A stretch of DNA of 64,000 nucleotides from Fibrobacter succinogenes (GTDB lineage Bacteria; Fibrobacterota; Fibrobacteria; Fibrobacterales; Fibrobacteraceae): assembly GCF_902779965.1 (NCBI RefSeq), contig NZ_CACZDK010000014.1, positions 1 to 64,000 on the forward strand. Direction: 5' to 3'. Positions 26,901-42,807 of this stretch are shown in pieces (position 1 is the first letter of the stretch; every line of letters starts with the position of its first letter). The notes beneath the pieces were generated by a model. That model was not told the DNA's origin and made no database searches. It saw only the letters and a list, made by a program, of their open reading frames with translations. The position numbers and the translations under genes were made by a program.

Positions 26901-27299
26901 TTTTTCAATCAATTGACGGAAACATTCTTCGGCCTTGTCGATGTCCAAAGAATGTTCCACTTCAAAATAGATATGCGTGGAGTTTACAGACCCGTGAAAG
27001 TTTTGCTCTCTCCCGAGTCTGTAAGACTGCTGCATTGGCGTTAGGGGGATTTTTTTTTCGACTTCGGCACCTTTGCCGAGCTTTTCTTGAATCTTATCAA
27101 CCAAGTCGCCGATTGTTTCTGCTTTGACCAAATCGAGCATTCCGAATTCTATGCTGAGTTTGTTCTTGACTTCTCCAAGGAATCGGAACATTTGAATGGA
27201 ATCTTCAAAAACTTCGTAGAGGGATGTTTCTGTTTGGACGTTTTGCTTTAGAATTTGATTAACGATTTCGAGAATTTCTTTTTGCGAAAATTGCGACAT
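20952..27299 (-). CDS. NRPS: carrier-Cy-A(Cys)-PCP-Cy-A(Cys)-PCP
   Basis: A 2115-residue synthetase. Residues 1-78 are a carrier domain (FEDSIQMF, Ser34) for a starter unit. Cy1 (about 84-505) has ELMFVDGMS at 211-219, an ExxxxDxxS variant of the cyclization motif. A1 (about 520-990) carries YTSGSTG (659), FDLSVYD (704) and LWNSVPA. PCP1 has ELGGDS (Ser1046). Cy2 (from about 1110) has the classical DLMVCDGDS at 1236-1244. A2 repeats FDLSVYD and VWNSVP; PCP2 has SIGGDS. Both A pockets read D-L-Y-N...I-W, the cysteine type known from pyochelin and yersiniabactin synthetases. The layout parallels HMWP2 but lacks an epimerase and has no terminating domain. It should build two consecutive thiazolines on the starter acid. 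Confidence 0.9.
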   Translation of the reverse strand: MSQFSQKEILEIVNQILKQNVQTETSLYEVFEDSIQMFRFLGEVKNKLSIEFGMLDLVKAETIGDLVDKIQEKLGKGAEVEKKIPLTPMQQSYRLGREQNFHGSVNSTHIYFEVEHSLDIDKAEECFRQLIEKHEALRAFVEEENQCILAKDISKNFKIERTSVSEADLKKVLDEKRLQAQTEMRDLSKWPLFDITNISTEKRNIATVDLELMFVDGMSAQGLASEFLMLYHEGKLPEYDFESIPEYVEWIKSRKDNAKHDSDAEFWHKLEADIPAAPKLPVTASRNNEANICKRMQNVFSKDTLRNMEITARKNGVTSSVVLFYLYLKTLARFSESEKFSVNITMLNRPYGVEGMNYIIGDYTSNVIFDFDNTQIAQLPLREALQAIRDRMYERIDHSAYEGVEVIRDLIRQKQIDNENPMPIVFTSMLFGRLPEAKGLQVSYVQSQTSQVSIDNQICKTHDGSLMISWDYLEKIFTPNTITEMFRYYSESIEAFSKTGECTVQAPQFEERVIAYNSTKKEFDIKHPIEYLQKSFEKYHDRIALKNGVMTTMTYGELEDSVRKAMYMLKKQGVNCNDSIAILSQKNFSTVIAILATMGVGATYIPVDDKWPEDRKEYIVKNSNCKLLVNPQKLVEAPTRERADFAPNPNLDATAYVIYTSGSTGVPKGVSISYAAMMNTILDINERMGINENASILGLSSYCFDLSVYDLFGSLIAGAELDIAKDIRETDEIKRFVDSSKNILWNSVPAGMELFIDSLDETYVNHELKNVLMSGDWIPVSLPARIRKHFPEAKIYSLGGATEASIWSIYFPIVHVDPSWQSIPYGYPLANQTIYILNESLEICPPEIQGEIYIGGVGVAQGYANSEEKTKAAFIYHPKFGRIYKTGDFGRFSANGYVVFLGRKDNQVKVGGYRIELGEIEQRMNSLEQVDASIVVLDPSKHIVAFYTGKQTDKEVFKKELSQFLPAYMVPHRFVHLDEMPLSANGKLDRKSLLQTLTANTNESAEAKSPIVLTETQSAIIDIWKSVLDLKEIDCSLDFFELGGDSIKAQRIAQRIDQKFGIRVPFVSVLNTPNAKEFAETVEDKIVTKNETAYTQNADTGVSGKGAEFPMTGVQLAYLNGRNDHFELGKYNAHYYFEIDSQYTVAEIENAIRKVVKKHDAFRAIFLPSGTQKVLTEVPDYKVEVVHCTAAERESESLKIRNELSHHIYKHDQWPLFTFKAIDYGDTNRIIFVSFDLMVCDGDSMQIFFSDLGRILRKQPFEERIGYSYERYVRDLSHSRDEKRYEEDKAYWLERLPSFPEYPHVPLAQKISDCTDYTITRKQDVICKKTWSKFKEVAKAHRVSPSALLCTIYAKVLERWSNQRDMVLNLTAFERKPFHKDVEKIIGDFTKLLPLALSMNEDNLWKQATDVQNRIVDGLDHLSYDGTEIMRELAKSKNQFGKAILPVVFTCVLFDAPENYYEVLGKLRYSISQTPQIFIDNQIAEMGKKLYVTWDVVKEIFDPTIIDQMFHDFVENIRYIANGEHETCFPEINLVWERYNPEVKPAPKKTLHGLVNSAMPLFKNRTAVVGKDSSLTYAELDSLSNRIANLLQEKGVVRGDRVAVLGERIPETIASILGILKAGGVYVPVDVSYPKERIDFIMQDGNCKCLLKKSYLEAKGIQNYSDKPLQMINAPEDEAYIIYTSGSTGKPKGVIMQHGATANTIIDVNERLSLNENDALIGISSICFDLSVYDIFGALSSGAKLALVSDARDMSEVCQILTTQNVTVWNSVPVLFDMAMKHRISANDSSKLSLRKVLLSGDRIPLDICTTAKNAGSTADLISLGGATEAAIWSIIYPFSEVRPEWDCIPYGYPMKNQTFYVLDEELKLCPPEVQGDLYIGGVGLAKGYNNDPEKTNKAFIKHPQLGRIYRTGDLGKLKTEGFIEFLGRSDTQIKLNGFRIELGEIESAIMHTGFVSRAVAALKDVPGSGKQIIAYVLGASIENAESTIKAEISKTLTGYMIPSRIVTMDSFPLSANGKVDKKQLPIPEISIATATPASTTNENISDEEKAMLEIWQNVFENPGISMNDDFYSIGGDSITLMKLVDKIALDLKKTVNIDQILQAKSIKEFISLIH

Positions 27300-27308
27300 G
27301 GAATCTCC

Positions 27309-28925
27309 TTAGATTTTACCTTCTTTGTAGGCGGCGTACAGTTTTTCTTTGGCGATTTTTCCGGTTCCTGTAAGCACTAGTGATTTGAGCGGGATGACTT
27401 CTTTGAGACCGAAACCCATTTCCGAGAAGACGAAATCTTTGAGTGAATGTGTATTCACTTTTTCGGGTTCGCAATATTCGACAAAGAGGTAGATGTAATT
27501 TGTAGACGCTGCGGAATCGTTTACGCCGCAGGCAGCGCAGCGGTAGCCGAATTTTGAAGTGACAACTTGTTCGATATCGCGCAAGTAAATGTTTTTGCCG
27601 TGGATAAAGAACATGTCTTTTTTGCGGCCCACAACGTATAAAAGTCCATTGCTCAAAAAGCCGAGATCGCCCGTGTCGAGCCATCCGTCAACAAACATAT
27701 CCGAAGAATCCTTGTTTAAGTAGCCGGTGCAGATGTAATCGCTGAACACCTGGATGCTTCCCACGGTGTTATCGGGAAGGACTTTGTTTTCTTCATCGCA
27801 GATGCGGATTTGCATTTCGGGAATCGGTCGGCCCTGGCACACGATATCTTTTGCGTTTTCACGGAGCCCCTTCATGTCGAAATCAATACCCGATGTTACC
27901 TTGTTCATGTCGAGTTCTGGATATTCGTGGTCCATGTTGAACGTTACGGCGCCCAAAGCTTCGGTAAGGCCGTAAAGCGGAACGATGGCGTGTTCGTGCA
28001 TTCCGAATTTGGCCATGGTTTGGGTAAATTCGGCAAAAACTTTTTTGGAGAGGGGTTCACCGCCGTTCAAAATAAAATCGATGCAAGATAGATCCCATTT
28101 TTCGCTGCCGTCCAAGGCTTTCAAGAGAAGCGGATAGGCAAAATTCGGGGCGGAAGTCTTTGTGGCTCGCGTCTTGCTGACCGCATCGAACCATGATTTC
28201 GGATTCTGGATGAATTCTGCGGCGTCCATGTGGACGGCACCCGTCTTGTAGTACATCGGGATTGTGATGAGCGTGACAACGCCGAAGGCGTGCTCTAGCG
28301 GGAGCCATTGCAACCATGTATCTTTTGAACTTGTCTTTAATGCAATGTTCAAATTCTTGAGCATCAGAAGGAACCTTTCGTTTGTCATCATTACGCCCTT
28401 GGGGTCCGAAGTACTTCCTGATGAATAAAGTACAAGTGCGAGTGCTTTTGGATCAACATCGACGTAATCGATTTCGCTTGGCAAATCTTGCGGGATTTGT
28501 GTGATTTCTTCGGGAACGGTGATTAAACGTTTCAAATCACATTCCTTCCAGAAAAACTTGATGAATTCTGCCGTTTCGGTGTCGGCGATGATGGCTGCTT
28601 GTGGATTGGCGTTTGCCACGCGAATTAATCGGGTTACGTGGTCTTTGCTACGAGCGGCCGTCAATAAAACGGGGGCGATTCCCATGCTCAACAATGCATA
28701 GAAATTCCCCATGAAGGCTTTTTTCGATGCTCCGTTAATTTGGAAAATGACAAGATCGCCTTGCTTGAGGCCTGCCTTTTCAAAAGTATGTCGTGCGTAA
28801 AGAATGCGTGTCTTGAGTTCGGCTTTCGAAAAATTTGTTGCAATTCCGTTTTTCATTAGAATGATGCGAAAATCGCATTCAAGGTATTCCTTCAATTTTT
28901 GATTAAGCGAAGGCAAGTTTTCCAT
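27309..28925 (-). CDS. Fatty-acyl-AMP-ligase-like enzyme (starter activation)
   Basis: A 538-residue stand-alone adenylating enzyme. It shows YSSGSTSDPKGVM (P-loop), LPLEHAFG, the TSAPNFAYPL segment typical of fatty-acyl-AMP ligases, PLYGLTEA, LDTGDLGFLSNGLLYVVGR and the late TGTGKIAK lysine. The aryl-acid ligases of siderophore clusters (EntE/YbtE type) have a different A4 region. It is encoded just before the NRPS that begins with a carrier domain, so I infer it loads a carboxylic acid, likely aliphatic, onto Ser34 of that protein. Chain length cannot be told. It overlaps the phosphopantetheinyl transferase gene by 23 bases. Confidence 0.75.
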   Translation of the reverse strand: MENLPSLNQKLKEYLECDFRIILMKNGIATNFSKAELKTRILYARHTFEKAGLKQGDLVIFQINGASKKAFMGNFYALLSMGIAPVLLTAARSKDHVTRLIRVANANPQAAIIADTETAEFIKFFWKECDLKRLITVPEEITQIPQDLPSEIDYVDVDPKALALVLYSSGSTSDPKGVMMTNERFLLMLKNLNIALKTSSKDTWLQWLPLEHAFGVVTLITIPMYYKTGAVHMDAAEFIQNPKSWFDAVSKTRATKTSAPNFAYPLLLKALDGSEKWDLSCIDFILNGGEPLSKKVFAEFTQTMAKFGMHEHAIVPLYGLTEALGAVTFNMDHEYPELDMNKVTSGIDFDMKGLRENAKDIVCQGRPIPEMQIRICDEENKVLPDNTVGSIQVFSDYICTGYLNKDSSDMFVDGWLDTGDLGFLSNGLLYVVGRKKDMFFIHGKNIYLRDIEQVVTSKFGYRCAACGVNDSAASTNYIYLFVEYCEPEKVNTHSLKDFVFSEMGFGLKEVIPLKSLVLTGTGKIAKEKLYAAYKEGKI

Positions 28926-29580: not shown

Positions 29581-31035
29581 TTACAAAACCTCGTCCCATT
29601 TTTCGGTGAGCAATCGTTTGAGTAAATTCACGTTTGTAGCGAACATCTGCTTTAATGTTTCTGGTGCAAAAGCGGGTTCTGCATAATCCCAATTGATGGA
29701 AAGCCTCCCGTCAAAATTGGTGACTTGATAATCCAATACAACTTGCGGAGTTTTGCTCAATGCGTAAATTTGTTGCAATCCTTGGGGTAAATCGCTGTTG
29801 GACTTTTGCCCGTTTTCAAGCACGCAAGTGATGACAATCGGCATTTGTGCGCGCATGGGCGAAAGACCTTCCTTGAATTTGAGAATCTTTGTACCGTCGT
29901 ATGTATGGAAGCGTACAAGTTGCCACATGTCTTTTTGCACGGACTGCACGCATTCCAAAAAGTTCTTGCATTTTTTCGAAAGCGTGATGAATGCAATGTT
30001 CGTGAAATCGCCAACGACCGAGTTGATGTCTTTGTGAAGCGGTAAGCGATTGAACAAAGTGGAATTGATGGTGAGTGAATCGCACTTGCTGAAACCAAGG
30101 AGCGCCTTGAGATAGGCGGTGCTGATGACGGCGGCAGGTGTTGTGCGATATTCGCGGCATTTCTGCTGGAATAACGCAAACTCATCGACTGTCAATTCTC
30201 CAGAAATTCTTGAAAAACGATGGTTGTGAATTTCTGAAAGCGGTTTTGCATATGGCAAGTCCGGTTCGCAAACGAGCTCGTTTATTTTTGATTTCCAGAA
30301 TGCTTCGGCTTGCGAGTAATCTTGCTGCTTTTCGAATGTAATCAAGTCGTTGCAATAATCCTTGAAGGAGTAATCGACCCATTGCACGGTTTCGTTGCGA
30401 TAAAGTTTGAACATCTGCGAAAGCGCGATTTTTGCACTCCAGGCATCCATAATCATGCAGTCGAAATCAAAATGCAGAACGTCTTTTGTGTTTGGCACGC
30501 GCGAAATGCGCATCGTAAAGAACGGCCATTGATTCAATGGATAAATGTGGTGGCTCCATTCCTTGCGCTTTTCGAGACGTTCTTCGATGGATTTTAATTC
30601 GACAACTTCAATGGAATACGTCGGGGCGGTTTCGAGAACGCGCTGTGTTCCTTTTGCAGAAATCACAAGGCGAAGAGCATCATCGTGAGCGATAACTTCG
30701 TTCCATGCGTTTTGCAACCGCGTTACATCAAGCGTTTCGTCAAGTTCAACTTCCAAATAATAATGCGTGTTGATCCCGCCAAGATCGTAAACAGGATCGC
30801 GACCGACAAGGTATGATTTTTGAATGGGCGAGAGCGGGAAAGAATTTTGTTCTTCTTCCGCTTGCTTTTCGAGAAGCGCGATGATTCCGGCCTTGTTTGC
30901 CTTTAAACATTCCTTGTCTTCGCTAGAAAGCGCTCCGCTTGCAGCGCGGAATTTTAGCTTGCCCTCTTCGAGCCAAAGCGTTACGCCGCGCTGTACGAAA
31001 CTTTCAATGAGTTCCTTTGCGGTTAGAGAATCCAT
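29581..31035 (-). CDS. Free-standing NRPS cyclization protein with TubC-type docking domain
   Basis: A 484-residue protein with only two parts: a short N-terminal docking domain of TubC type (residues 1-58; LIESFVQRGVTLWLEEGKLKF) and one heterocyclization domain with DCMIMDAWS (DxxxxDxxS). There is no adenylation or carrier domain. It also keeps late Cy features, GDFTNIAFI and SINWDY. It must act in trans, most simply with the A-PCP protein encoded at 40081, which lacks a condensation domain, to make one complete cysteine module. A separate Cy polypeptide is rare, since Cy domains are normally embedded in modules. Confidence 0.85.
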   Translation of the reverse strand: MDSLTAKELIESFVQRGVTLWLEEGKLKFRAASGALSSEDKECLKANKAGIIALLEKQAEEEQNSFPLSPIQKSYLVGRDPVYDLGGINTHYYLEVELDETLDVTRLQNAWNEVIAHDDALRLVISAKGTQRVLETAPTYSIEVVELKSIEERLEKRKEWSHHIYPLNQWPFFTMRISRVPNTKDVLHFDFDCMIMDAWSAKIALSQMFKLYRNETVQWVDYSFKDYCNDLITFEKQQDYSQAEAFWKSKINELVCEPDLPYAKPLSEIHNHRFSRISGELTVDEFALFQQKCREYRTTPAAVISTAYLKALLGFSKCDSLTINSTLFNRLPLHKDINSVVGDFTNIAFITLSKKCKNFLECVQSVQKDMWQLVRFHTYDGTKILKFKEGLSPMRAQMPIVITCVLENGQKSNSDLPQGLQQIYALSKTPQVVLDYQVTNFDGRLSINWDYAEPAFAPETLKQMFATNVNLLKRLLTEKWDEVL

Positions 31036-34000
31036 TAGTTGTTCTCCTGCAAATTTTTCAAGGAAAGTTTTTCGGCAAGTTCCGACGCAAATTCCTTCGA
31101 TGTGAATGCGGTGAAATGGTCGCCTTTGAGTTGCTCGTATTTGATTTCACCAATGCAAAGGTCATCCCATTTTTGGAACAGCATCTTGTCTGCATTCTTG
31201 AAAATGCTGTTGCTGTTGTCAGCCTTGAAATAGCGCAAATCGCCGAAATACGGAGTCGGATTGTAATTGATCATGACGTTGAAATTTTGATCGAACGTAT
31301 TCTTAATTCGAGCAAAGGCTTCGTCGGTCATGCTATTGCCAAAATCACCGGAGTATTCCTTGATTTTCTGGAATCGCTCGCTTGATGCCAATGCGTTGAA
31401 AGTCCGGATGGCATCTGCATCAGGCGATTGACCGATAATCTTTTCGAAATCGTTTTCATCAATGATTTTTTTCTTTGTTTCTTCGATATAGCTGTTCATC
31501 AAGAAGGTGATGTCTTCGAACTTGAAACCAACCTTTTCTGGATTAACGTCAATCAATGTGGCAAAGAAGAAATCTTTAATGTTTGTCTGCTTGATTTCGA
31601 ACGGCAAACGTGCTCCTTCGATGATGGCAAGGTCCACAATTTCGATTTCAGCATTTTCGAGACGTTCAGCAAGTTCCAATGAAAGTTTTCCATTGAAGCT
31701 ATAACCGATGATCTGTACTTTCTTGACGCCAGCTTCTATAATCTTGTCTGCAAATTCCTTGGCCAAGACGCTTGCAACTTCAGCCTCGCCAATTTCAAAG
31801 AAGTGTTGCGTATTCGAAAGTTTGAACGTGAAAATTTCGCCTTCGTCCTGACTTTCCATGAGCGGAATAATTTCATGGAACATTTCGTCGTTCCAAAGAA
31901 CGGTCGGGAGGAGTACTCTTGCACAATCGTCCTTTGCCTTGCCGTAACGTTTGAGTTGAATGAACTCTCCCGAATTGTCAGTTGCTTCTTCGACTTCGTT
32001 TTTCAAGAAGCGTGCAACTTCAGTGACTGTCGGGAAATCAAGCATCTGCTTCAATATGGCATCGAATGTCTTGTCCGAAGCGAGTTCGTTGCGGATGGTC
32101 GTTGCCATTTGCGCCATGAGCAAGGAATCTGCGCCAAAGTCATAGAAGTTGTCGTCTTTACCGAGAGAGTCGATATTCAAAGCCTTGATGGCAATTTCGA
32201 TAAGGCGATTTTCGATGGATTGGTCTTTACCCTGTGATGCTTCGAATGCATCTGCGTAATGTTTGAGCGCCTGCTGGTCTACGCTTCCGTTTGCGGCTAA
32301 AGGCAACTTGTCGAGAATATGGATAGACGTGTTCTTTTCAGGGCAGATGTCGTTTAGTATCAACTTTACAGAAGATTCGGAAACTTCATCCCTGTCATAC
32401 TTGAATTGCTTGACGTAAAGGTATCCGCCTAGCATTTTGGCCTTTGCTTCATCTTGCGGGAATGTTGTTGCGTTTGCAAGACCGTCTTTTTGACGTAGCA
32501 ATTCAATCCAATCTTCTTTAGGCAAGAACATGTGTTTTTCTCTAATCTTGTCTATGGGCTTATCCATCATCAAAGCCTGCGATACGGATATGGATGCAGT
32601 ATCGGAACCGACTTCTTCGATAAAGAGATAACCGCCTGGGACTAGAGTTTTCTTCATTTGTTCTAGCGTGTGGTCTAGATCTATGGAGTTGGCCATCGCG
32701 CCGCCACATAGAATAATGTCGACACTGTTTTCGGGGAGTCCTTGGCTTTCGAATTCTTCGTTAAAGTCCAATTGCGTGAAAATCATTGCTGGATCTTTAT
32801 GCGTGTATTCTCCAGCCATGGGGAAGAATTGTGTAAACTTGTCTGTGAAATTGTATATGAAAGGGAAACCTGATTCTTTAAGACCTGCGAACGCCTGTCT
32901 TGTGATTTGCCCTGTGCCAGCACCCAATTCAAGAATTCTCCATGTTTTCTTGGAATCCGTTGCCATAATCTGCTTCAAAAATTCTACGAGATGTTCGTTG
33001 ATAATCTTGTAGCTGTTTTGGGCCTGTACAATATCAGACCAATTTTGCAACGCATTGTTTTCGTGATTGTCGCTGTAGTTCTTGTAGACAAAATCATTTG
33101 GATCGGCGTTGCCTGCTAAAACTTCGCCAAAGTGGATTCCGTTTTCTTTGAGATAACGAACGTATGGCTTCGAAGCGATATGGCTATCGGTGTTTTGAAT
33201 GACTTCGTCCCATTTATTTTCGTTTTGTTCGAGCGAAACATCTTGTAAAATCTTGAATTTGTTGCCGCAAGGTGTGATGTTGCCATTTTCTAAAAGAACA
33301 TTTATCCATTCTTGGGCGTGGAAACGGAATTTTTCCGGTATGGCATTTTCGAGTTCTTCCTTGGTAAAATCTTTGCCGTAAACAAGAATATTGTTTTGCA
33401 AAAGTCCAAGAAGAATGGAGTCGGCAGCCGTTTTTTCAATGTTCTTGTAGCTATTGCTGATTTTTTCCCAATCGAAGTTTTTATGTGTCGCGGAAATTTC
33501 TTTATCCACCTGAGTTACGTTTTTGGTGAAAATTTCTTCACATTCATCAATTCGATTTTTCTGCTTTTTGCGTGGTTCCACGGCAACGATGAGGTTGTCT
33601 TTATTGTTGCCCAAGAATGCTGTCGCTTTTTCAATTGGCAAACTGCTGACAAGTGCTTCTTCAACTTGCGTAAGGTTTAGCGCGCCTGTCTTGGCCTTAG
33701 ATTCCTCGAAGAACTTGAGGATGTTCTTGCGGTCGATTTTTCCATTTGCAGAAAGTGGCAATGCATTGAATTCTTGGATGTAGCCCGGGTGCATGTAATG
33801 CAACAGGTATTTATCGAGATGTTCCTTGAGCTTTTCGTTATCGATAACTTGTTTATCGCTCTTGACTTGCTTGACAAAGAACAGCACATGCAAAAGATCA
33901 AGTGCACTGTCGTTAGCCGGGAATGAACTCAGGTTGACGTTCTTTTCGCCATGCAAAAGTTTTTCGGTCCATTTGCTTCGAGACATTTTGAGCTGTTCAA

Positions 34001-37000
34001 AAATCTGCTTCTGGCGTTCTAAATCGTCAGAAGGAACATCCATCAAAAGTGCCTGCGTGATGGTAATCCAAGCGGAGAGTTCATAGGATTCCAGGAACAT
34101 AAAGTGCCCACCGGGAACGAGAACGTCTTCGATTTGCGATAGAGTCTTGCCGAAATCAATCGCGTTGTCCATGACGTAGCCGCCAAAGACGATGTCAAAC
34201 GTATTCGATTTTAATCCCTGCTTGCGGAAATCTTCATTTACGTCTAACTGCTTGAATACAAGTTCCGGATAATCCTTGAACATTTCTGCCGCTGTCGGGA
34301 AGAAGTGCTTCAAGTAATCGGTGAAGTAGTATTCAAACTTGTGTCCCTTCAATACCGGCAAAAGGTAGCGTGTTGCAGAACCGGTTCCTGCGCCGACTTC
34401 CAAAATGCGAATGGTTCGGTTTGGATTTTCGTCCAAGATTTTTTTGAAGTACTCCGCCAATGTGTTGTACGCAATACGCATGATTTTGTTTTTGACGTAA
34501 AGCGAATCGACATAGCGGTATTTGTCGCCTTTTTCGGGGTAAAGGAATTTTCCCGGATCCACTTTGCCTTGCGCAATTTCTGCGAGATGGTCGCCGTTAA
34601 GCTTGACGTATTCAAGAAAGTCTTTTGAAATGTATTCGCCATTCCAAATTTCGTAGGCGTTCTTCCAAAGATTTTCCTTTTCGCCTTCGGTAGCGTCAAT
34701 GTGGCAAATGTAAGATTCGCCTTGCTGTTCGATGAACTTTTCGGCAAGCAGGTAGCCGAGCCATTGCGTGACAAGCCAATGGTATTTTGCAATGACCGGA
34801 GCTTTGATTTCATCAATGGTGTATGCCTTATCCTTTTGGAAAACGCCCATCTTTTGTAGCTCGAACAAGATGGTGTAAGCGCTGGCTCTTTCTTCGGCCT
34901 TGTAACCATCTTCGACTTGTTTCATGTCAATTTCGCCGATGCGGTCTTGCATGAACTTTTCGATAGCTTTTTCGCGTTCTACAAATTTTTGCTTGTTAAC
35001 GTTGATTTCGTTTGCGGTTGCATTTTCAGCAACAATTGCGGAATAGATTTCGCGCTTGTCTGCACTTACGATGGCTACAGCTTCCTTAATGGCGGGGAAG
35101 TCTTTCAAGACGTTTTCGATTTCGCCGAGTTCAATACGATGGCCACGGATTTTTACCTGCGTGTCTTCACGACCGAGGAATTCGATTTCACCACCGGGGA
35201 GATAACGCCCCATGTCGCCGGTCAAGTAAACTTGTTCATCTGTTTTGGGGAGCGCTACAAACTGTGCGGCAGTGCGTTCTGCATCCAAGTAGTATCCTAG
35301 TGCAACGCCATCGCCTCCGAGTGCAATTTGCCCAGCGACCATTGTCGGGCACGGCTGCAAATTGTTGTCGAGAATATGCATCGTCTGGTTTGCGAGCGGG
35401 CGGCCATAAGGCAAAATTTTGAGACCGTCGTTTGGATCGTAACGATGATAGTTGGACCAAATGGAGGCTTCTGTCGCACCGCCAAGGCAAATCACATCAA
35501 CGCCGGGAGCAGCCTTGCGGATTCTTTCGGGCATGTCAACAGGAATCCAGTCGCCGGAGAGGAATACTTCACGGAGCGGGAGCGGTTCTGCAGAGTTCTT
35601 GCTTTCGACAAAGTTCAGGAGCATCTTCATCAATGCGGGCACGGTATTCCATACGGTAATGTTGTGCTTGTGAATGAGGGCTTCCCAAACTTCGGGGTTC
35701 ATGTAATCTTCGGTGGTCGGGTAAATAAGCGTGCCGCCATAGCCGAGAACGCCAAAGAGATCGTATACGGAAAGGTCAAAGTTCAACTGCGAAAGTCCGA
35801 GAACAGCATCGTCTGCGGTAACGCCAAAACGGTCGTTCATGTCATCGATAGTGTTCATCGCGCCTTTGTGTGTAATTACGACACCCTTAGGCTCGCCTGT
35901 ACTGCCGCTCGTGTAGATGATGTAGGCGATATCATCGGGAGTGCGCTTCGGAAATCTGGAGCAATCGACTGCAAAATCATTTGCACCGAGTGTATCGACA
36001 TTGATGGTCGTGATTTCACCTTCAAGGAGTGCTTCGTCGTTAGAAATGCCGATGGCCACTTTTGCGCCTGTTTTCTTGACAATTTTTTCGGCGCGGCCTT
36101 TTGCTTTGGCGGCTGCAATCGGCACGTAAATGGCTCCGGCGTACAGAATGCCGAATACAGATACGACTTGCCATGCTGATTTTTCCATCAAGACGGGAAC
36201 GCAATCCTGAGCCTTTACGCCACAGGTGATCAGTTGGTCTGCCAGAACTTTAGCGCGTGCGTCGAGTTCTTCGAATGTGAATTTAACATGACCATCGTCA
36301 ATGGCGATTTTCTTTGGAGTGCGCTTGACGCTTTCGATAAAGTCATCTTGCAGCATTCGCACATTCCAATCCTTGCGTGTGTCGTTTGCAGCTTTGCGCT
36401 CTGCGGCATCGCGGGCGGGGAGCGCGATTTCAGCAACATCTTCCCAATCGGCGTTTTCTTCAGCGAGAGCGAGCAAACGCTTTTCGAATGCTTCGAACAT
36501 GGAATCCAAAACGCCTTCTGGGAATACGCCTTCGCGATAGTCCCAGTTGACTTGCAATCCGAAAGCGCCATCCATCACTTGGCAGTCGATAAAGGTTTGT
36601 GGCGTCTGTGAAATGCCTCCGACAAAGTCTCCGCGCAATGGTGCCCCCGAATCGGCGAGGCCAATCGCGCTTGTATAAACGATTGGCATCGAAAGCCCTG
36701 TTTTTTTACTTTGTCTAGAGATTTCGCGCATGACTTCGACGCCACTGAAAAGGCGGTTGTCCAAGTCCGCAAAAAGCTGGCCGTTTATTTTGCGGGTGCG
36801 AGAAAGGAAGTTTTCTTTTGCGGCGCAATCGACTTCGAGCAGACTGAGCGATGTGAAATCGCCAACGATGTCCATGACTTTTTCATGGAGCGGGAGTCTG
36901 TTCAAAACGGTCATGTTGATGCAGAAACGTTTATTGCGGCTCCACTTGGCAAGTACATCGGCGTAGCACGAAAGAATCGGAACAGTCGGCGTGAGGCCGT

Positions 37001-37925
37001 ATTGCTTGGCGCGATTTTTCATGCGGTTCCAAGTATCTGCAGGGATTCTCAAGAACTTGCGCCCAAAGGCATCCTTTGCTTCGGAGGCTGGGAGTTTCGG
37101 CAATTCCGGCGCATCAGGGAGATTCTCGATGCGGTCCATCCAATACTTCTTTTCTTTTTCGTACTGTGCGGTTGCCTTGAGTTTCTTTTCGGCAATCAAA
37201 TAATCGCGGAAAGAAAGTTCTTCTTCACCTGTGACGGCAATTTCGTCAAAATAGGCGGCTTCAAATTCGGCAACGAGTTTCCAAATGCTTGTCCAGTCGG
37301 CGAGCAAAAATTCAATCGAAAAATGGAGAATGGCGCTTTCATTGTTGCGACTTACGGCAAGACCGAACATAGGCCATTTGCCAACGGTATAGGCACGGTT
37401 GCCCATTTCTTTGCGGAACTTTTCAAATTCGTTTGCTTTTTCAGGATGCTTCACCAAGTCCCATTCCGGAATTTCCAATTCGGGAACATCCTTCATTACC
37501 TGCTGATAACCGCTTTCGTTGATGACCGCATGGAGCATGTCGTATTTGCGCGTAATCGCATTCCAAATGTCGCGAACTTTTTGCGTTTCGAGTTCTGCGT
37601 AACGGATTTCAAGATAAACGTGGCAAGCGACGCCGCCATATTCAAAAGTTTTGCTGCGTCCAAGCAAATAAGCGGATTGTACATCGGTAAGCGGGAACGG
37701 TTCAAAACGATTGGTGCGGTCAATGACAATGGCAACATTACTATCGTCACTTTTTTCGCTCAAGTACTTTATCAAAGTTTCTTTGTTTGCCTTGAGTTCT
37801 GCGAGTACAGCGGGGGTCATAGCCTCCTTGGAAGCCTTGTACTTGATTTTCCCGTTTTCCGTCCACAAGTGAATTCCGTTTGCTTCAAAACGGTTGACCA
37901 AATTTTGCATGTTCTTGTCTGTCAT
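31035..37925 (-). CDS. NRPS termination module: TubC-Cy-A(Cys)-MT-MT-PCP-TE
   Basis: A 2296-residue synthetase. It has an N-terminal TubC docking domain (1-60) and a Cy domain (about 73-500; EFLLADWTS at 205-213, an ExxxxDxxS variant). The A domain has a cysteine-type pocket (FDLSVYD, VWNTVPA, LGGATEASIW). Two methyltransferase domains follow, with EVGAGTGSA near residue 1175 and ELGAGTGQI near residue 1668, each followed by an A10-like NG(K/S)(I/V)D segment. The PCP has DFGADSLL (Ser near 1933) and the thioesterase GYSFNG (near 2073) with a late GDHF histidine. It resembles PchF and the end of HMWP1 but with two methyltransferases. It should add the last cysteine, methylate once or twice, and release the product by hydrolysis or cyclisation. 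Confidence 0.9.
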   Translation of the reverse strand: MTDKNMQNLVNRFEANGIHLWTENGKIKYKASKEAMTPAVLAELKANKETLIKYLSEKSDDSNVAIVIDRTNRFEPFPLTDVQSAYLLGRSKTFEYGGVACHVYLEIRYAELETQKVRDIWNAITRKYDMLHAVINESGYQQVMKDVPELEIPEWDLVKHPEKANEFEKFRKEMGNRAYTVGKWPMFGLAVSRNNESAILHFSIEFLLADWTSIWKLVAEFEAAYFDEIAVTGEEELSFRDYLIAEKKLKATAQYEKEKKYWMDRIENLPDAPELPKLPASEAKDAFGRKFLRIPADTWNRMKNRAKQYGLTPTVPILSCYADVLAKWSRNKRFCINMTVLNRLPLHEKVMDIVGDFTSLSLLEVDCAAKENFLSRTRKINGQLFADLDNRLFSGVEVMREISRQSKKTGLSMPIVYTSAIGLADSGAPLRGDFVGGISQTPQTFIDCQVMDGAFGLQVNWDYREGVFPEGVLDSMFEAFEKRLLALAEENADWEDVAEIALPARDAAERKAANDTRKDWNVRMLQDDFIESVKRTPKKIAIDDGHVKFTFEELDARAKVLADQLITCGVKAQDCVPVLMEKSAWQVVSVFGILYAGAIYVPIAAAKAKGRAEKIVKKTGAKVAIGISNDEALLEGEITTINVDTLGANDFAVDCSRFPKRTPDDIAYIIYTSGSTGEPKGVVITHKGAMNTIDDMNDRFGVTADDAVLGLSQLNFDLSVYDLFGVLGYGGTLIYPTTEDYMNPEVWEALIHKHNITVWNTVPALMKMLLNFVESKNSAEPLPLREVFLSGDWIPVDMPERIRKAAPGVDVICLGGATEASIWSNYHRYDPNDGLKILPYGRPLANQTMHILDNNLQPCPTMVAGQIALGGDGVALGYYLDAERTAAQFVALPKTDEQVYLTGDMGRYLPGGEIEFLGREDTQVKIRGHRIELGEIENVLKDFPAIKEAVAIVSADKREIYSAIVAENATANEINVNKQKFVEREKAIEKFMQDRIGEIDMKQVEDGYKAEERASAYTILFELQKMGVFQKDKAYTIDEIKAPVIAKYHWLVTQWLGYLLAEKFIEQQGESYICHIDATEGEKENLWKNAYEIWNGEYISKDFLEYVKLNGDHLAEIAQGKVDPGKFLYPEKGDKYRYVDSLYVKNKIMRIAYNTLAEYFKKILDENPNRTIRILEVGAGTGSATRYLLPVLKGHKFEYYFTDYLKHFFPTAAEMFKDYPELVFKQLDVNEDFRKQGLKSNTFDIVFGGYVMDNAIDFGKTLSQIEDVLVPGGHFMFLESYELSAWITITQALLMDVPSDDLERQKQIFEQLKMSRSKWTEKLLHGEKNVNLSSFPANDSALDLLHVLFFVKQVKSDKQVIDNEKLKEHLDKYLLHYMHPGYIQEFNALPLSANGKIDRKNILKFFEESKAKTGALNLTQVEEALVSSLPIEKATAFLGNNKDNLIVAVEPRKKQKNRIDECEEIFTKNVTQVDKEISATHKNFDWEKISNSYKNIEKTAADSILLGLLQNNILVYGKDFTKEELENAIPEKFRFHAQEWINVLLENGNITPCGNKFKILQDVSLEQNENKWDEVIQNTDSHIASKPYVRYLKENGIHFGEVLAGNADPNDFVYKNYSDNHENNALQNWSDIVQAQNSYKIINEHLVEFLKQIMATDSKKTWRILELGAGTGQITRQAFAGLKESGFPFIYNFTDKFTQFFPMAGEYTHKDPAMIFTQLDFNEEFESQGLPENSVDIILCGGAMANSIDLDHTLEQMKKTLVPGGYLFIEEVGSDTASISVSQALMMDKPIDKIREKHMFLPKEDWIELLRQKDGLANATTFPQDEAKAKMLGGYLYVKQFKYDRDEVSESSVKLILNDICPEKNTSIHILDKLPLAANGSVDQQALKHYADAFEASQGKDQSIENRLIEIAIKALNIDSLGKDDNFYDFGADSLLMAQMATTIRNELASDKTFDAILKQMLDFPTVTEVARFLKNEVEEATDNSGEFIQLKRYGKAKDDCARVLLPTVLWNDEMFHEIIPLMESQDEGEIFTFKLSNTQHFFEIGEAEVASVLAKEFADKIIEAGVKKVQIIGYSFNGKLSLELAERLENAEIEIVDLAIIEGARLPFEIKQTNIKDFFFATLIDVNPEKVGFKFEDITFLMNSYIEETKKKIIDENDFEKIIGQSPDADAIRTFNALASSERFQKIKEYSGDFGNSMTDEAFARIKNTFDQNFNVMINYNPTPYFGDLRYFKADNSNSIFKNADKMLFQKWDDLCIGEIKYEQLKGDHFTAFTSKEFASELAEKLSLKNLQENN

Positions 37926-37926
37926 C

Positions 37927-39000
37927 TTAAACCTCTTCGCTGTATTTGTGGATTTCTGCCGACGGGATGTATTCGCTGTTGCCTTCGGGGTGGATCAATT
38001 TTGCAAATCCGAAAATGTTGGTGATTTCGGACCATTTCTGTGAACACAAAAGTTCTCGTTGCGCCAATGGAGCGAGTTTTACTTTTTGGTCAATCATCTT
38101 CGAAAATTCAATAATGTTATCTGCAATGCCTTGTTTCCAATCATCGAAAAGAACGTGCATAAAATCCTTGGCCTTGTAATTTCCCAAGGTTTCCATCGTC
38201 AATTCTTTAAGGTAAGGCGGAATTTCGTTACGCTTTTCGGGGTTATACAAGTATTTGGGCACGTACATACGCGGTTTCCAAAGTACAGGGCCGAAAGTAT
38301 CTTCGAGAATCAAACGGCCGGTTTCGTAAACGATGGCGAAGTTGTGCAAAAGATGCGCGTGATTGTCTCGGTCATCCGTATTCACCTGATTGTTGTATTC
38401 AATCATGATAGGCGTGTCGCCAAGTTTTCCGGTAAGAATATCGAAGGGGCCGATGCATTCTGTGATGTGTTCGACCTTTAAATTGTAAATCGAAGGGAGA
38501 ATGCGGGAGAGAATGTCAATCGCTGGGAAAGAAACTTGTGGACCGAAGGCGGCCTTGATGTAAAGCGGCTTTTCGTGCTTATTCAATTCTTGAGCTACGC
38601 GGATGAATCGTGCTACTTCAGGGAGTTTCGGGTAAAGATCGCAAGTCTTGAAATAAACACCGTTCTTTTTGGCAACGCGATAAGTTTCAGTAAGATCGCG
38701 CGGATGGATGGGCTGTTCCTGAAGAACGTGGATTTTTTTTCCCATGAACTTGCAGGCGAGTTCTGTACCGATGCCGCCCACCGTTCCAGAACTGATGACA
38801 ACACAAGCGAAATCGATTTTTGGAATTTGTTCGAACTCTGTGAAAAGCGGGATGCTATAAGTCTCGGCACATTTTTTGGAGCGTTCGCTTCCTTTGCCGT
38901 AAAGTCCGACTAATTCAAAATCATCTTTTAATAACTGTTGCAGAGCGTTGATGTAGAACTGTCCGAAAGTGCTTCCGCAGACAACAACTCGTTTCTTCAT
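37927..39000 (-). CDS. Thiazolinyl imine reductase
   Basis: A 357-residue NAD(P)H-dependent Gfo/Idh/MocA-type reductase. The N-terminal Rossmann segment is VVVCGSTFGQFYINAL. The phrases LYGKGSERSKKCAETY, VVISSGTVGGIGTELACKFM, HVLQEQPIHP and FGPQVSFPAID are those of the family that reduces a thiazoline ring to thiazolidine in pyochelin (PchG) and yersiniabactin (YbtU/Irp3) synthesis. Its presence is the best single marker for the product class. It lies two bases after the termination module in coordinates and is transcribed just before it. Confidence 0.9.
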   Translation of the reverse strand: MKKRVVVCGSTFGQFYINALQQLLKDDFELVGLYGKGSERSKKCAETYSIPLFTEFEQIPKIDFACVVISSGTVGGIGTELACKFMGKKIHVLQEQPIHPRDLTETYRVAKKNGVYFKTCDLYPKLPEVARFIRVAQELNKHEKPLYIKAAFGPQVSFPAIDILSRILPSIYNLKVEHITECIGPFDILTGKLGDTPIMIEYNNQVNTDDRDNHAHLLHNFAIVYETGRLILEDTFGPVLWKPRMYVPKYLYNPEKRNEIPPYLKELTMETLGNYKAKDFMHVLFDDWKQGIADNIIEFSKMIDQKVKLAPLAQRELLCSQKWSEITNIFGFAKLIHPEGNSEYIPSAEIHKYSEEV

Positions 39001-39004
39001 TTTC

Positions 39005-40084
39005 TTAAATTTCTCCCTCTATTTCGGTTGTAAGCATGTCCTTGATTTCGCATGAAAATTCAGGTTGATTTGCGATGAGCGATTCAATGATGGGGGTGGC
39101 ATAATCGCTTTCGCCAAGTAAAATGGTTCCGCAAGATTTCTTTTCTTTGACAAAGCAAAGTGTGGCAGCTCCTGCGCTAACGCCTGTCATCGGTGATGGG
39201 CCGAGCCCATGAATGGTGAGCTTGAATTTTGCCGGCGCATTGTCTTTAACGCCTTCCATAACGCATAGGTAAAAAGTGTTTTCTTTGATGCCGAAGGTAT
39301 CGAGCTTACTTGCGGTGCAAAGTTTTTTGATGGTTTCGTCAGGATTTTGTTTGTACTGATGTCTTGCGGAATTCATAATTTCAATCATGCGTTGTCCACT
39401 AAGACACATGTGGAATCGCGCTTCGTCAAGATTCATTTTGCGTGTGACGGCTTCTGCTTCGCCATCGAAAAACGGAAACATTTTATTGATTGAAATGACG
39501 CTCTTTAATTCTTCGGAATAATCATTTGACGAAGGTACGAACGGAAGGATTTCTCCTTTTTTCCAGTAGACCATGGTGCGGTTATTGCTATTGTGGAGGC
39601 TATCGATAAAATCGTTAGCCGCTGTGTACGAAAATGCACCAAGTCCGCCGTAGTAAAATTCCAAAGAGTTGACATGGTCAAATTTTTTTGCGAGATATTG
39701 CGGAATGAGCCCGGAAAGTCCTGGGATGCATCCTGCGCCATAAACAATTGAAACTCCAGATTCTTTTCTTTTGAATCCTTCAATTCCAAGATGCAAAACG
39801 GGTGTGTTTTTCGCTTCGGCGATTTCGTCCATCAATGTCGTTTGCGCTTCTGAAAGCTTGGCGCAATCGAGAACGATTTCGCAACCATCCATAAACTGTT
39901 CGATGCTTTCCTTATTTGAAACATCAACTTTTGTCCATTCGGCGTTGCTCCATTCCGAACGTAATTCGCTTGGGGCTTTTTCGATATTGCGCCCGCCAAT
40001 GCGAAGGCGGTATTCAGAATTATTTCTGATGAAGCGTGTGGCCCAAATGCCAACAGCGCCGTATGCTCCAAGAATTCCAATCAT
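39005..40084 (-). CDS. Saccharopine dehydrogenase-like NAD(P)-binding reductase
   Basis: A 359-residue protein with an N-terminal nucleotide-binding motif GAYGAVGIWATRFI, the LRIGGRN segment, and the IVYGAGCIPGLSGLIP phrase typical of saccharopine-dehydrogenase-like proteins. This family includes tailoring enzymes that reduce imines. Its role here is unknown; it could set a second redox state on a heterocycle or act on the thioester-bound acyl chain. It overlaps the preceding NRPS gene by four bases (ATGA), so it is coupled to it. Standard yersiniabactin and pyochelin clusters do not need it, which argues for an extra step in this pathway. Confidence 0.7.
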   Translation of the reverse strand: MIGILGAYGAVGIWATRFIRNNSEYRLRIGGRNIEKAPSELRSEWSNAEWTKVDVSNKESIEQFMDGCEIVLDCAKLSEAQTTLMDEIAEAKNTPVLHLGIEGFKRKESGVSIVYGAGCIPGLSGLIPQYLAKKFDHVNSLEFYYGGLGAFSYTAANDFIDSLHNSNNRTMVYWKKGEILPFVPSSNDYSEELKSVISINKMFPFFDGEAEAVTRKMNLDEARFHMCLSGQRMIEIMNSARHQYKQNPDETIKKLCTASKLDTFGIKENTFYLCVMEGVKDNAPAKFKLTIHGLGPSPMTGVSAGAATLCFVKEKKSCGTILLGESDYATPIIESLIANQPEFSCEIKDMLTTEIEGEI

Positions 40085-42807
40085 ATTTCTCCCTCTTCGA
40101 TATCGCCCAAGGCGTTGATGCGTTCTTCAAAAATTTTGGCGAGATTGTTCAGTTCTGCATTTTCGAAAATTTCACGGAGCGATATTTCGACACCGTATTG
40201 CGTGTGTATTTTTTCGAGGAATCGCGTAGCCAAGAGACTGTCGCCTCCGATTTCAAAGAAGTTGGCGTAACGGTCGATTTTTTCGAGTGAAAGCAAAGAC
40301 TTCCAGATTTCAGCGAGGTCTGCTTCGCGTCCTTCGTAATTTTCGTTTACATCGGCGGAACATGTCTTTTTCAAAAGTGCGGTAATTGTTTTGCGGTCCA
40401 CTTTGGCGTTGGCCGTAAGCGGAAATTTCACAAAAACCTCTGTCCTTGACGGAATCATGTACGGGACTAGATTTGTTTTCAAGTAATCGTCAAATTCGCT
40501 ACCGAGAATTTCTTTTGCGTCAATCGCTTTTTGCGCAATGATGGTTTGCACAAAGTGAGAGTTGTTCTCCAGTGAAATCGTGTCGAAGGGAAGTTCCTTA
40601 AAAATGGATTCCCATTCTTCATCGGACAAAAGTGAAGTGAAGCGGCGTAAACGTGTGTATTTTGCAAAACCGTTTTCCAGAACGGCAGAACTCACAATGG
40701 CGACTGGGTCGAAATTCTCGAAATCGAGTGCCATGAACTTGCCGCCTTTCTTGAGAATCATGTAGGCGAAGGCAAGGGCGTTGGCGGGGTTGTTGTAAGT
40801 GTGTAGGAATCCTGCATCGATAACGAGATCGAACTTTTCTAAATCCTGAACGCTTGCGCTCAAGTCAAGAGGCCTGAATTTCAAATAGTCCTTCCAAGCC
40901 CGTAAAAAATCGCGAGCCATGTCAAGCATGCCCATCGATTCGTCGAATAACGTGATTTCCATTCCGTTTTTCTCATAGGCTTTCAAAAATTCGCGAACGC
41001 CAATTCCAGAACGAGCGTTCAAAAAGGCGATTTTCCTTGAGTCTGCAAATGCGGCGATGGAAATAACTTTGTTTATAAATGTTTTAAATGGTGCGCTTTC
41101 AACGAGCAGCTTTTCAGGAGTGAAAAAATCGTTCCCTAAAAGGTCCGTTTCGGGGCGCTTCCCGGTAAGAACATCCTGCAACAATTCGATGTTTTCATTG
41201 CTGTTCAGTTTCTTTGAAAAATCTGAAGTCACTGCTGGGCGAATTTGTTCAAAACCGTTTGAGAAAAGCCAATTATTCCACAGGGCGAATGCGTTTTTCG
41301 ACTTTTCAGGAATTGTCTTGATGTTCGAACGAATGGTATGGATGAGGGCGGCGACTGCGTTGGTGCGGTCTTGCTGAGTTTCGTCCGTATAATTATCGTT
41401 GTATTTGTAATCGTATTTTGCGATTTTTTCTTTGCTGAGAGCAGGGATAATCGCAGCGACAATTTCTTTTTTCGCTCCGTTCTCGACAACTACAGCTGCG
41501 GCATTCACAATGTTTGATTTTTTCTTGATGACGTTTTCGATTTCACCGAGTTCAATACGGTAACCGCCAAGTTTAATTTGCGTATCCAAACGTCCTAAAA
41601 ATTCTGAGTTGCCGTCAGGCGTCATGCGCACTTTATCGCCGGTTCTGTACCAACGTTCTCCGTTTTCAATTGGGAAGCGTTCTTTGGTTAAATCCGGTTG
41701 GTTTAAGTAACCTTCGGCAACGCCAATACCGCCAATCCAGAGTTCTCCTGCATCTCCAGTGGCGCATTCCTTGCTGTTTTCGTCCATGACTTTGATCTTT
41801 TGGTTCTTTAGCGCTTGTCCGTAAGGAATAGATTTCCATTCTGGCTGCAATGCGTTTACTTCGTACCAAACAGACCAAATAGAAACTTCTGTAGCGCCGC
41901 CCAAAGAAATGAAACGGCAATTCGGCCAATACTTCTTTGTTGTGCCAAACAGCGGGAGCGGAATCCAGTCGCCCGAAAGCATGATCGTTTTTAATGGAAT
42001 TGTATTTGCTTTATCGCCTGCGACAATCGTGAACATTTCAAAAAGTGCAGGGACCGAATTCCACAAAGTCACTTTCTGATCGCTTGCGATTTGTTTCCAG
42101 ACGTTAGCCTCTTTCTTTATTTCTTCAGAGAGGACGATGACCTTTCCGCCGGTGGATAGCATTCCGAATATATCATAAACGGAAAGATCAAAGTCCAATT
42201 CTGAAATGGCCATGCAGGCGTCATTAGCAGATACGTTAAAACGTTCGTTGATGTCTCGAATGGTATTGCTTGCGCCTCGATGTGAAATCATCACGCCTTT
42301 TGGAACACCTGTTGTGCCGGAGGTAAAGATGATATAAGCGAGGCTAGTTGCGTCTTCGACAATTTCATCAATGCTTATTGGCTGTGCTTGCAACGCGTTT
42401 TCGATTTCTATAACGTTCCAAGCTGAATTTTCTTTGCGGATGACTTCTGCGTGGATTTTATCCGTGATGATTCCCGAAATTTTTGCAGAGTCAAAAATTT
42501 TGTGCATTCTTTCCATGGGCTGGTGGATGCCGACGGGAACGTAGGCCGCGCCAACTGCTTGAATGCCGAGTGTCGAGAAAATTTGATTCATTCCTTTCGG
42601 AAGAACGATTGCAACGAGGTCTTTAGCTTTGATTTCAGCCGTTCTAAGTGCTGAAGCGATTCTCAATGCGTTTTCCGAAAGTTCGCCGTATGTTTTGGAA
42701 TTGTAAGTTCCGTCGGAGTTGCGTGAAACGAGTGCAGTTGCGTTAGGAACTTCAGCGGCTTTTACGAAAACCGCTGAATGGATACATTCTGGATTCTTTG
42801 TGAACAT
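40081..42807 (-). CDS. NRPS: A(Cys) with embedded degenerate methyltransferase/epimerase-like domain, PCP
   Basis: A 908-residue synthetase without condensation domain. The A domain carries FTSGTTGVPKGVM, FDLSVYDIFG, LWNSVPALF and SLGGATEVSIW, a cysteine-type pocket. Between A8 (LGGYRIELGEIE) and A10 (ANAKVDRK) about 280 residues are inserted. They look like a methyltransferase fold, but the SAM motif reads NARSGIGVREF where an ExGxGxG is expected. In PchE-type proteins a similarly placed pseudo-methyltransferase epimerises the cysteinyl unit, so I infer epimerase or inactive. The PCP has EIGGDSLL (Ser near 858). It needs a Cy partner in trans, presumably the protein encoded at 29581. Confidence 0.85.
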   Translation of the reverse strand: MFTKNPECIHSAVFVKAAEVPNATALVSRNSDGTYNSKTYGELSENALRIASALRTAEIKAKDLVAIVLPKGMNQIFSTLGIQAVGAAYVPVGIHQPMERMHKIFDSAKISGIITDKIHAEVIRKENSAWNVIEIENALQAQPISIDEIVEDATSLAYIIFTSGTTGVPKGVMISHRGASNTIRDINERFNVSANDACMAISELDFDLSVYDIFGMLSTGGKVIVLSEEIKKEANVWKQIASDQKVTLWNSVPALFEMFTIVAGDKANTIPLKTIMLSGDWIPLPLFGTTKKYWPNCRFISLGGATEVSIWSVWYEVNALQPEWKSIPYGQALKNQKIKVMDENSKECATGDAGELWIGGIGVAEGYLNQPDLTKERFPIENGERWYRTGDKVRMTPDGNSEFLGRLDTQIKLGGYRIELGEIENVIKKKSNIVNAAAVVVENGAKKEIVAAIIPALSKEKIAKYDYKYNDNYTDETQQDRTNAVAALIHTIRSNIKTIPEKSKNAFALWNNWLFSNGFEQIRPAVTSDFSKKLNSNENIELLQDVLTGKRPETDLLGNDFFTPEKLLVESAPFKTFINKVISIAAFADSRKIAFLNARSGIGVREFLKAYEKNGMEITLFDESMGMLDMARDFLRAWKDYLKFRPLDLSASVQDLEKFDLVIDAGFLHTYNNPANALAFAYMILKKGGKFMALDFENFDPVAIVSSAVLENGFAKYTRLRRFTSLLSDEEWESIFKELPFDTISLENNSHFVQTIIAQKAIDAKEILGSEFDDYLKTNLVPYMIPSRTEVFVKFPLTANAKVDRKTITALLKKTCSADVNENYEGREADLAEIWKSLLSLEKIDRYANFFEIGGDSLLATRFLEKIHTQYGVEISLREIFENAELNNLAKIFEERINALGDIEEGEI

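Follow-up and report, generated by a model that had tools for sequence, protein, structure and literature searches.

Tandem methyltransferases within one adenylation domain of a predicted Fibrobacter thiazoline metallophore system

What would a single module of a nonribosomal peptide synthetase (NRPS) do with two methyltransferases (MTs), and how did it come to have them? The question is raised by a 64,000-nucleotide stretch of Fibrobacter succinogenes DNA (contig NZ_CACZDK010000014.1, positions 1 to 64,000; hereafter the window), in which one open reading frame (ORF) encodes a terminal NRPS module. The adenylation (A) domain of this module carries the specificity residues DLYNLSLI (read by eye), which is the cysteine code of PchF as printed in Table 1 of PMC3672683. 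Between motifs a8 (residues 925-937) and a10 (residues 1389-1400) of this Cys-activating domain a first methyltransferase, MT1, is inserted, and a second, MT2, follows. The sequence comparisons described here indicate that the MT1/MT2 pair was produced by tandem copying of a unit comprising the second half of the A subdomain (A-sub), an MT and motifs a9/a10.

Unit 1 (residues 936-1412) can be aligned with unit 2 (residues 1419-1895) over its full length, 490 residues with 30% identity (E 3e-70, far beyond chance), and MT1 and MT2 are sister clades in trees, with support of 100/99. A tree forcing MT1 together with its nearest outside relative, without MT2, was rejected (approximately unbiased test, p 0.0006). 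An earlier note, made from the sequence alone, had proposed that an MT plus A-tail unit was duplicated, and these comparisons bear it out. The duplication is older than the divergence of the seven Fibrobacter sequences that contain both domains. The copied unit starts just past a8 and consists of a helix and two strands of A-sub, the MT, a further helix and a9/a10. An a10-like segment is present after each MT, as the note had stated, at residue 1389 in copy 1 (LPLSANGKIDRK) and at residue 1874 in copy 2 (LPLAANGSVDQQ), but the two tails are not equivalent, because the second lacks the a10 Lys in all seven sequences; Lys1396 is invariant in copy 1, and Ser, Thr or Asn stands in its place in copy 2. 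The A-sub of an MT-free ortholog (L038) is identical to the copy 1 flanks at 42 of 76 positions, and to those of copy 2 at 16 of 70. Given this match and the presence of the Lys, copy 1 is read as the working A-sub that completes the A domain, and copy 2 as an added, non-catalytic A-sub scaffold for MT2.

Both domains are methyltransferases as judged by sequence, and MT2 also by its modelled fold. The S-adenosylmethionine (SAM) motif is EVGAGTGSA at residue 1176 in MT1 and ELGAGTGQI at residue 1666 in MT2. SAM motif I and the acidic position of FTD are kept in both domains of all seven Fibrobacter sequences, so that neither MT has lost its SAM-binding motif and the earlier description of two intact motifs holds. 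Profiles of several Pfam families exceed the curated cut-off in two methyltransferase stretches (Methyltransf_12, E 2.6e-21; Methyltransf_31, 5e-18), in agreement with the same note. When MT1 and MT2 were searched against PDB sequences with phmmer, the polyketide synthase (PKS)-type methyltransferase of CurJ was found, with E values of 5e-27 for MT1 and 7e-11 for MT2; neither the PchE epimerase nor an N-methyltransferase was matched. An AlphaFold2 model of the MT2 unit, built on 15 Fibrobacter sequences (mean pLDDT, the predicted local distance difference test, 77.5), contains the lid plus Rossmann MT fold, matches solved methyltransferases over its full length, and superimposes on CurJ with a Z of 32.6 and a root mean square deviation of 3.8 A over 364 residues. 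Neither of the two findings that the earlier note had named as refuting it, a lost SAM site or a different fold, was thus made. In a Foldseek search with this model, PchE appeared at rank 14. This fold does not discriminate between C- and N-methylation. A model of the whole tandem region (residues 905-1985) with six orthologs was unusable (mean pLDDT 49, predicted template modelling score 0.29).

Median ratios of nonsynonymous to synonymous substitution rates (dN/dS) are 0.065 for MT1, 0.091 for MT2 and 0.04 for the A core, values that point to purifying selection on both MTs, with less constraint on MT2 than on MT1. At least two diverged allelic types of MT2 occur among strains, with AGTGVITKQ or AGTGQITRQ. 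The divergence between them exceeds that in the rest of the protein, and recombination is possible.

The gene was detected in nine of the 111 genomes of the family, of which seven encode both MTs (one as a split ORF) and two encode none. Besides the window genome, intact two-MT orthologs were found in five genomes and a split-ORF ortholog in a sixth, and these six other genomes rule out an assembly artefact as the source of the tandem MTs. The ORF in metagenome-assembled genome (MAG) RUG10790 (L014/L017/L035) is split near residue 405, by either a frameshift or an assembly error. A whole-protein search of genome contigs (a single scan) returned only Fibrobacter; the matches, at 82-96% identity, come from MAGs of this genus, for the most part F. 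succinogenes. No second case of tandem MTs was detected outside this gene in 168 Fibrobacterota genomes, genomes of other phyla not having been searched, nor was one seen among the plasmid relatives inspected, which have one MT per A domain.

The MT-free orthologs are found in RUG13674 (L038) and in a second genome. Identity to the MT-free ortholog is 82% up to residue 964 and 38% beyond it, and therefore the entire end of the protein (A-sub, peptidyl carrier protein (PCP) and thioesterase (TE)) was exchanged or replaced, beyond the MTs alone. Gene order at the MT-free locus is otherwise unchanged, and no separate MT gene is evident between the ABC pair and the starter ligase, where not all ORFs were profile-scanned. 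The MT-free orthologs of Fibrobacter (L038 and L015/L016) have Cys as the TE nucleophile (TYCYIS), and the MT-carrying form has Ser (GYSFNG, position 31700, residue 2076). Most pyochelin/coelibactin-like relatives, the Burkholderia PchF-like protein included, have GYC or GHC in the TE, and the sorangibactin TE requires its Cys.

The catalytic position bears on the kind of methylation. PKS C-methyltransferases use a catalytic His-Glu dyad (PMC9821293), and in an alignment the His of this dyad is not present in either domain, its place being taken by Asp1253 in MT1 and Ala1745 in MT2. The His is present in both MTs of the yersiniabactin protein HMWP1 and in the epimerase domain of the neighbouring module P0002. 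Asn occupies this position in the Burkholderia PchF-like MTs and in two MTs fused to thiazolinyl imine reductases, and Glu is found in one Klebsiella plasmid MT of the A-domain-inserted, or stuffed, type. The stuffed or reductase-fused MTs that lack the His, MT1 and MT2 included, form one clade (95/94), and the C-methyltransferases lie elsewhere; this support comes from a tree with long-branch rows left out, and is weaker in the full tree. The pyochelin-type N-methyltransferase was represented in the tree by Burkholderia PchF orthologs. Given the missing His and the clade shared with this enzyme, we infer N-methylation for MT1 and MT2, both of which look like N-methyltransferases and not C-methyltransferases.

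A tentative proposal, to which we give slightly less than an even chance, is that these are two pyochelin-type stuffed N-methyltransferases in a terminal Cys module that methylate two thiazolidine nitrogens. The tandem copying of the unit from just past a8 through the MT to a10, which alignment and tree show, took place in an ancestor. The assembly line would condense and cyclise four cysteines, and two thiazolines would be converted to thiazolidines by two reductases; given that two reductase genes lie directly upstream, two rings may be reduced. The PCP-bound chain would then go to both MTs in turn, one methylating the nitrogen of the terminal ring, as in PchF, and the other the second thiazolidine nitrogen, which would yield sorangibactin-like N-methylthiazolidines before release by the TE. 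Sorangibactin has two consecutive N-methylthiazolidines and a cluster with a saccharopine-type oxidoreductase and several MTs, and deletion of the oxidoreductase/MT genes abolished its production (PMC10127202).

In Klebsiella, Anaerococcus and Streptomyces relatives an MT is fused to the reductase; the Fibrobacter reductase is unfused and the extra MT lies in the terminal module. A second methylation in cis is the simplest reading. It is possible, though doubtful, that two in-cis N-methyltransferases, produced by duplication of half the A-sub with its inserted MT, act within one module on the nitrogen of the module's own heterocycle and on that of the heterocycle before it, in place of the trans MT of relatives. 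MT-fused thiazolinyl imine reductases are encoded in loci L065 (7880-10102), L069 (11035-13206) and L072 (9653-11758). The fused MTs of L065 and L069 are PchF-like with Asn at the His position, and that of L072 belongs to another lineage.

Several observations weigh against methylation of two nitrogens. The N-methylation assignment comes from comparing sequences, and product and activity are predictions. The His is retained in stuffed MTs of uncharacterised product from Streptomyces, Azospirillum and Pantoea; the residue test is therefore one-directional, and the presence of His would not show C-methylation. The fused MT of sorangibactin-like Streptomyces clusters is of a different MT lineage, and the MT-free orthologs still carry both reductases, which thus do not require the MTs. 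The other points concern MT2. At the position of the Asn of PchF-type MTs it has Ala, its rate of evolution is higher (median dN 0.23, vs 0.09 for MT1), its stem branch is about twice as long (1.42 vs 0.69) and its motif after PGG is variable; MT2 may be less active or inactive. The alanine, the long branch and the higher dN, together with the degenerate second a10, would suit an arrangement in which MT1 is the sole working N-methyltransferase and MT2 binds SAM but is idle or a backup, retained for its part in folding, in presenting the PCP or in spacing. An engineered MT pair between a8 and a9 likewise adenylated but did not methylate, according to a review (PMC11355689). We nonetheless regard an idle MT2 as somewhat unlikely, given that all seven sequences conserve its SAM motif and core, that its dN/dS is about 0.09, and that a natural double insertion with both MTs working is known: in ColG, of the columbamide pathway, two MTs in one A domain carry out N,O-dimethylation (as cited in PMC11355689 and PMC10127204).

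A gem-dimethyl group, or one C-methyl and one N-methyl, at the terminal thiazoline had been suggested in the earlier note, and it would fit the nearest solved relatives by sequence and fold, which are PKS C-methyltransferases such as CurJ, as well as the C-methylation performed by HMWP1 in related chemistry. However, pyochelin N-methyltransferases resemble C-methyltransferases in sequence (PMC2613160), a known trap, and it is for this reason that C-methyltransferase structures top the PDB matches. Since both domains lack the His of the His-Glu dyad (PMC9821293) and group with the PchF-like N-methyltransferase in the His-less clade, away from HMWP1, a C-methylated product is quite improbable. 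The combination of one N-methyl and one O-methyl, the latter for example on an oxygen belonging to the starter acid or to a released group, has a precedent in ColG and in LynB3 of the lyngbyapeptin pathway, which also has two MTs in one A domain and is predicted to carry out N,O-dimethylation; these natural two-MT A domains do N plus O, and the long MT2 branch is compatible with an altered substrate. The MTs of ColG and LynB3 are, however, of different types, whereas MT2 is closely paralogous to an MT of the PchF type, and since each of the four A domains in the cluster reads Cys, a side-chain hydroxyl is not expected; this outcome is unlikely. It could also be asked whether MT1 or MT2 is a PchE-like epimerase derived from an MT, since stuffed MTs are the probable ancestors of the epimerases of this family, which resemble them, and P0002 has such an epimerase. 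In PchE, H1204, the counterpart of the C-methyltransferase His, is essential for epimerisation (PMC8807600), but this residue is Asp or Ala here. The SAM motifs are intact in MT1 and MT2, unlike that of the MT-like epimerase domain of P0002, which is degenerate although the His is kept (FLHTY), and the epimerase domains are separate in the tree. The epimerase reading was rejected on the His test and is exceedingly improbable.

The genes around the module, and the domains within it, are listed in the table. The cluster holds heterocyclisation (Cy) domains, Cys A domains (all four A domains have cysteine codes, as read by eye), a thiazolinyl imine reductase, an ABC pair and a TonB receptor. The TonB receptor and FeoB lie past one end and TonB/ExbB and the ABC pair at the other, which makes a metallophore likely. 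The cluster is thus likely to be a thiazoline metallophore (iron-scavenger) system of Fibrobacter, and no paper describing it was found in the literature. The saccharopine-dehydrogenase-like product is 24-26% identical in blastp to proteins from Pantoea, Streptomyces and Azospirillum (E 1e-17 to 1e-24). The fatty-acyl-AMP-ligase-like starter ligase is unusual in a thiazoline siderophore cluster. The active motif of the Cy domain in the terminal module is ExxxxDxxS in place of DxxxxDxxS, with the first Asp replaced by Glu (E205, position 37313).

Table. Genes and domains of the Fibrobacter cluster, with positions in the window (aa, residues of the terminal module; E, epimerase)
Feature	Position	Strand	Basis or remark
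Carrier-Cy-A-PCP-Cy-A-PCP	20952..27299	-	Cysteine code in both A domains
Starter acid-AMP ligase	27309..28925	-	Nearest to fatty-acyl-AMP ligases, not salicylate-AMP ligases
Dock + stand-alone Cy domain	29581..31035	-	
Terminal NRPS module ORF, 2296 aa	31035..37925	-	Single open frame; TubC_N dock, Cy, A(MT1)(MT2), PCP, TE
TE, aa 1990-2290	31056..31958	-	Ser2076 in GYSFNG
PCP, aa 1907-1974	32004..32207	-	Ser1934
Unit 2, aa 1419-1895	32241..33671	-	A-sub half copy without a8, MT2, degenerate a10 (Lys to Ser1881)
MT2, aa 1455-1846	32388..33563	-	SAM motif I 32904-32930; Ala1745 at catalytic-His position
Unit 1, aa 936-1412	33690..35120	-	A-sub first half, MT1, a9/a10, catalytic Lys1396 intact
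MT1, aa 975-1355	33861..35003	-	SAM motif I 34374-34400; Asp1253 at catalytic-His position
A core up to motif a8, aa 531-938	35112..36335	-	Domain search; specificity code
Cy domain, aa 75-490	36456..37703	-	Matches Irp2 and EpoB Cy domains
TubC_N N-terminal docking domain, aa 8-57	37755..37904	-	Pfam PF18563
Thiazolinyl imine reductase (Irp3/PchG type), no fused MT	37927..39000	-	TIGR01761, 239 bits vs cut-off 188.8; Pfam
Second putative reductase, saccharopine-dehydrogenase-like	39005..40084	-	Related to proteins of pyochelin/coelibactin-like clusters
A-E-PCP module (P0002)	40081..42807	-	Aligns to PchE along its length

The occurrence of two MTs in one A domain was already known; what is new here is that the two MTs are paralogs, that half of the A-sub was copied too, that the setting is a thiazoline module and that natural strains with neither MT exist. 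The duplicated unit may represent a natural solution where engineering failed, in that the A-sub half was copied along with the MT and the second copy was free to lose the adenylation Lys. Fibrobacter strains with zero or two MTs and an otherwise conserved gene order lend themselves to a natural comparison, both of function and with a view to NRPS design, in a host that is a major rumen cellulose degrader.

Among known systems, PchF shares with the Fibrobacter module the Cy-A-PCP-TE order, the a8-a9 insertion site, the Cys code and a partner thiazolinyl imine reductase, and its MT, with Burkholderia orthologs as representatives, falls in the same His-less clade. It has one MT, one A-sub and Asn at the His position, whereas in the Fibrobacter module this position is Asp in one MT and Ala in the other, and a second, degenerate A-sub half is present. 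The remark in the earlier note that yersiniabactin and pyochelin modules carry one MT is fair for those modules, but it leaves out ColG and LynB3, which resemble the Fibrobacter module in having two MTs within one interrupted A domain of one module. They differ in that their MTs are of the O and N types and act on Ser or Tyr, whereas those of Fibrobacter are paralogs from an internal duplication within a thiazoline module, and each is flanked by A-sub segments of its own. The sorangibactin/coelibactin-like clusters also have consecutive Cys modules, a saccharopine-type oxidoreductase and an MT in the assembly line, but a trans MT (reductase-fused in the Streptomyces relatives) may supply their second methyl, and their TE has Cys, in contrast to the in-cis MT and the Ser of the Fibrobacter TE. 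Finally, yersiniabactin HMWP1 (Cy-MT-PCP-TE) likewise ends in a terminal thiazoline module with an MT and a TE, but its MTs are C-methylating enzymes that retain the catalytic His, and the module is without an A domain.

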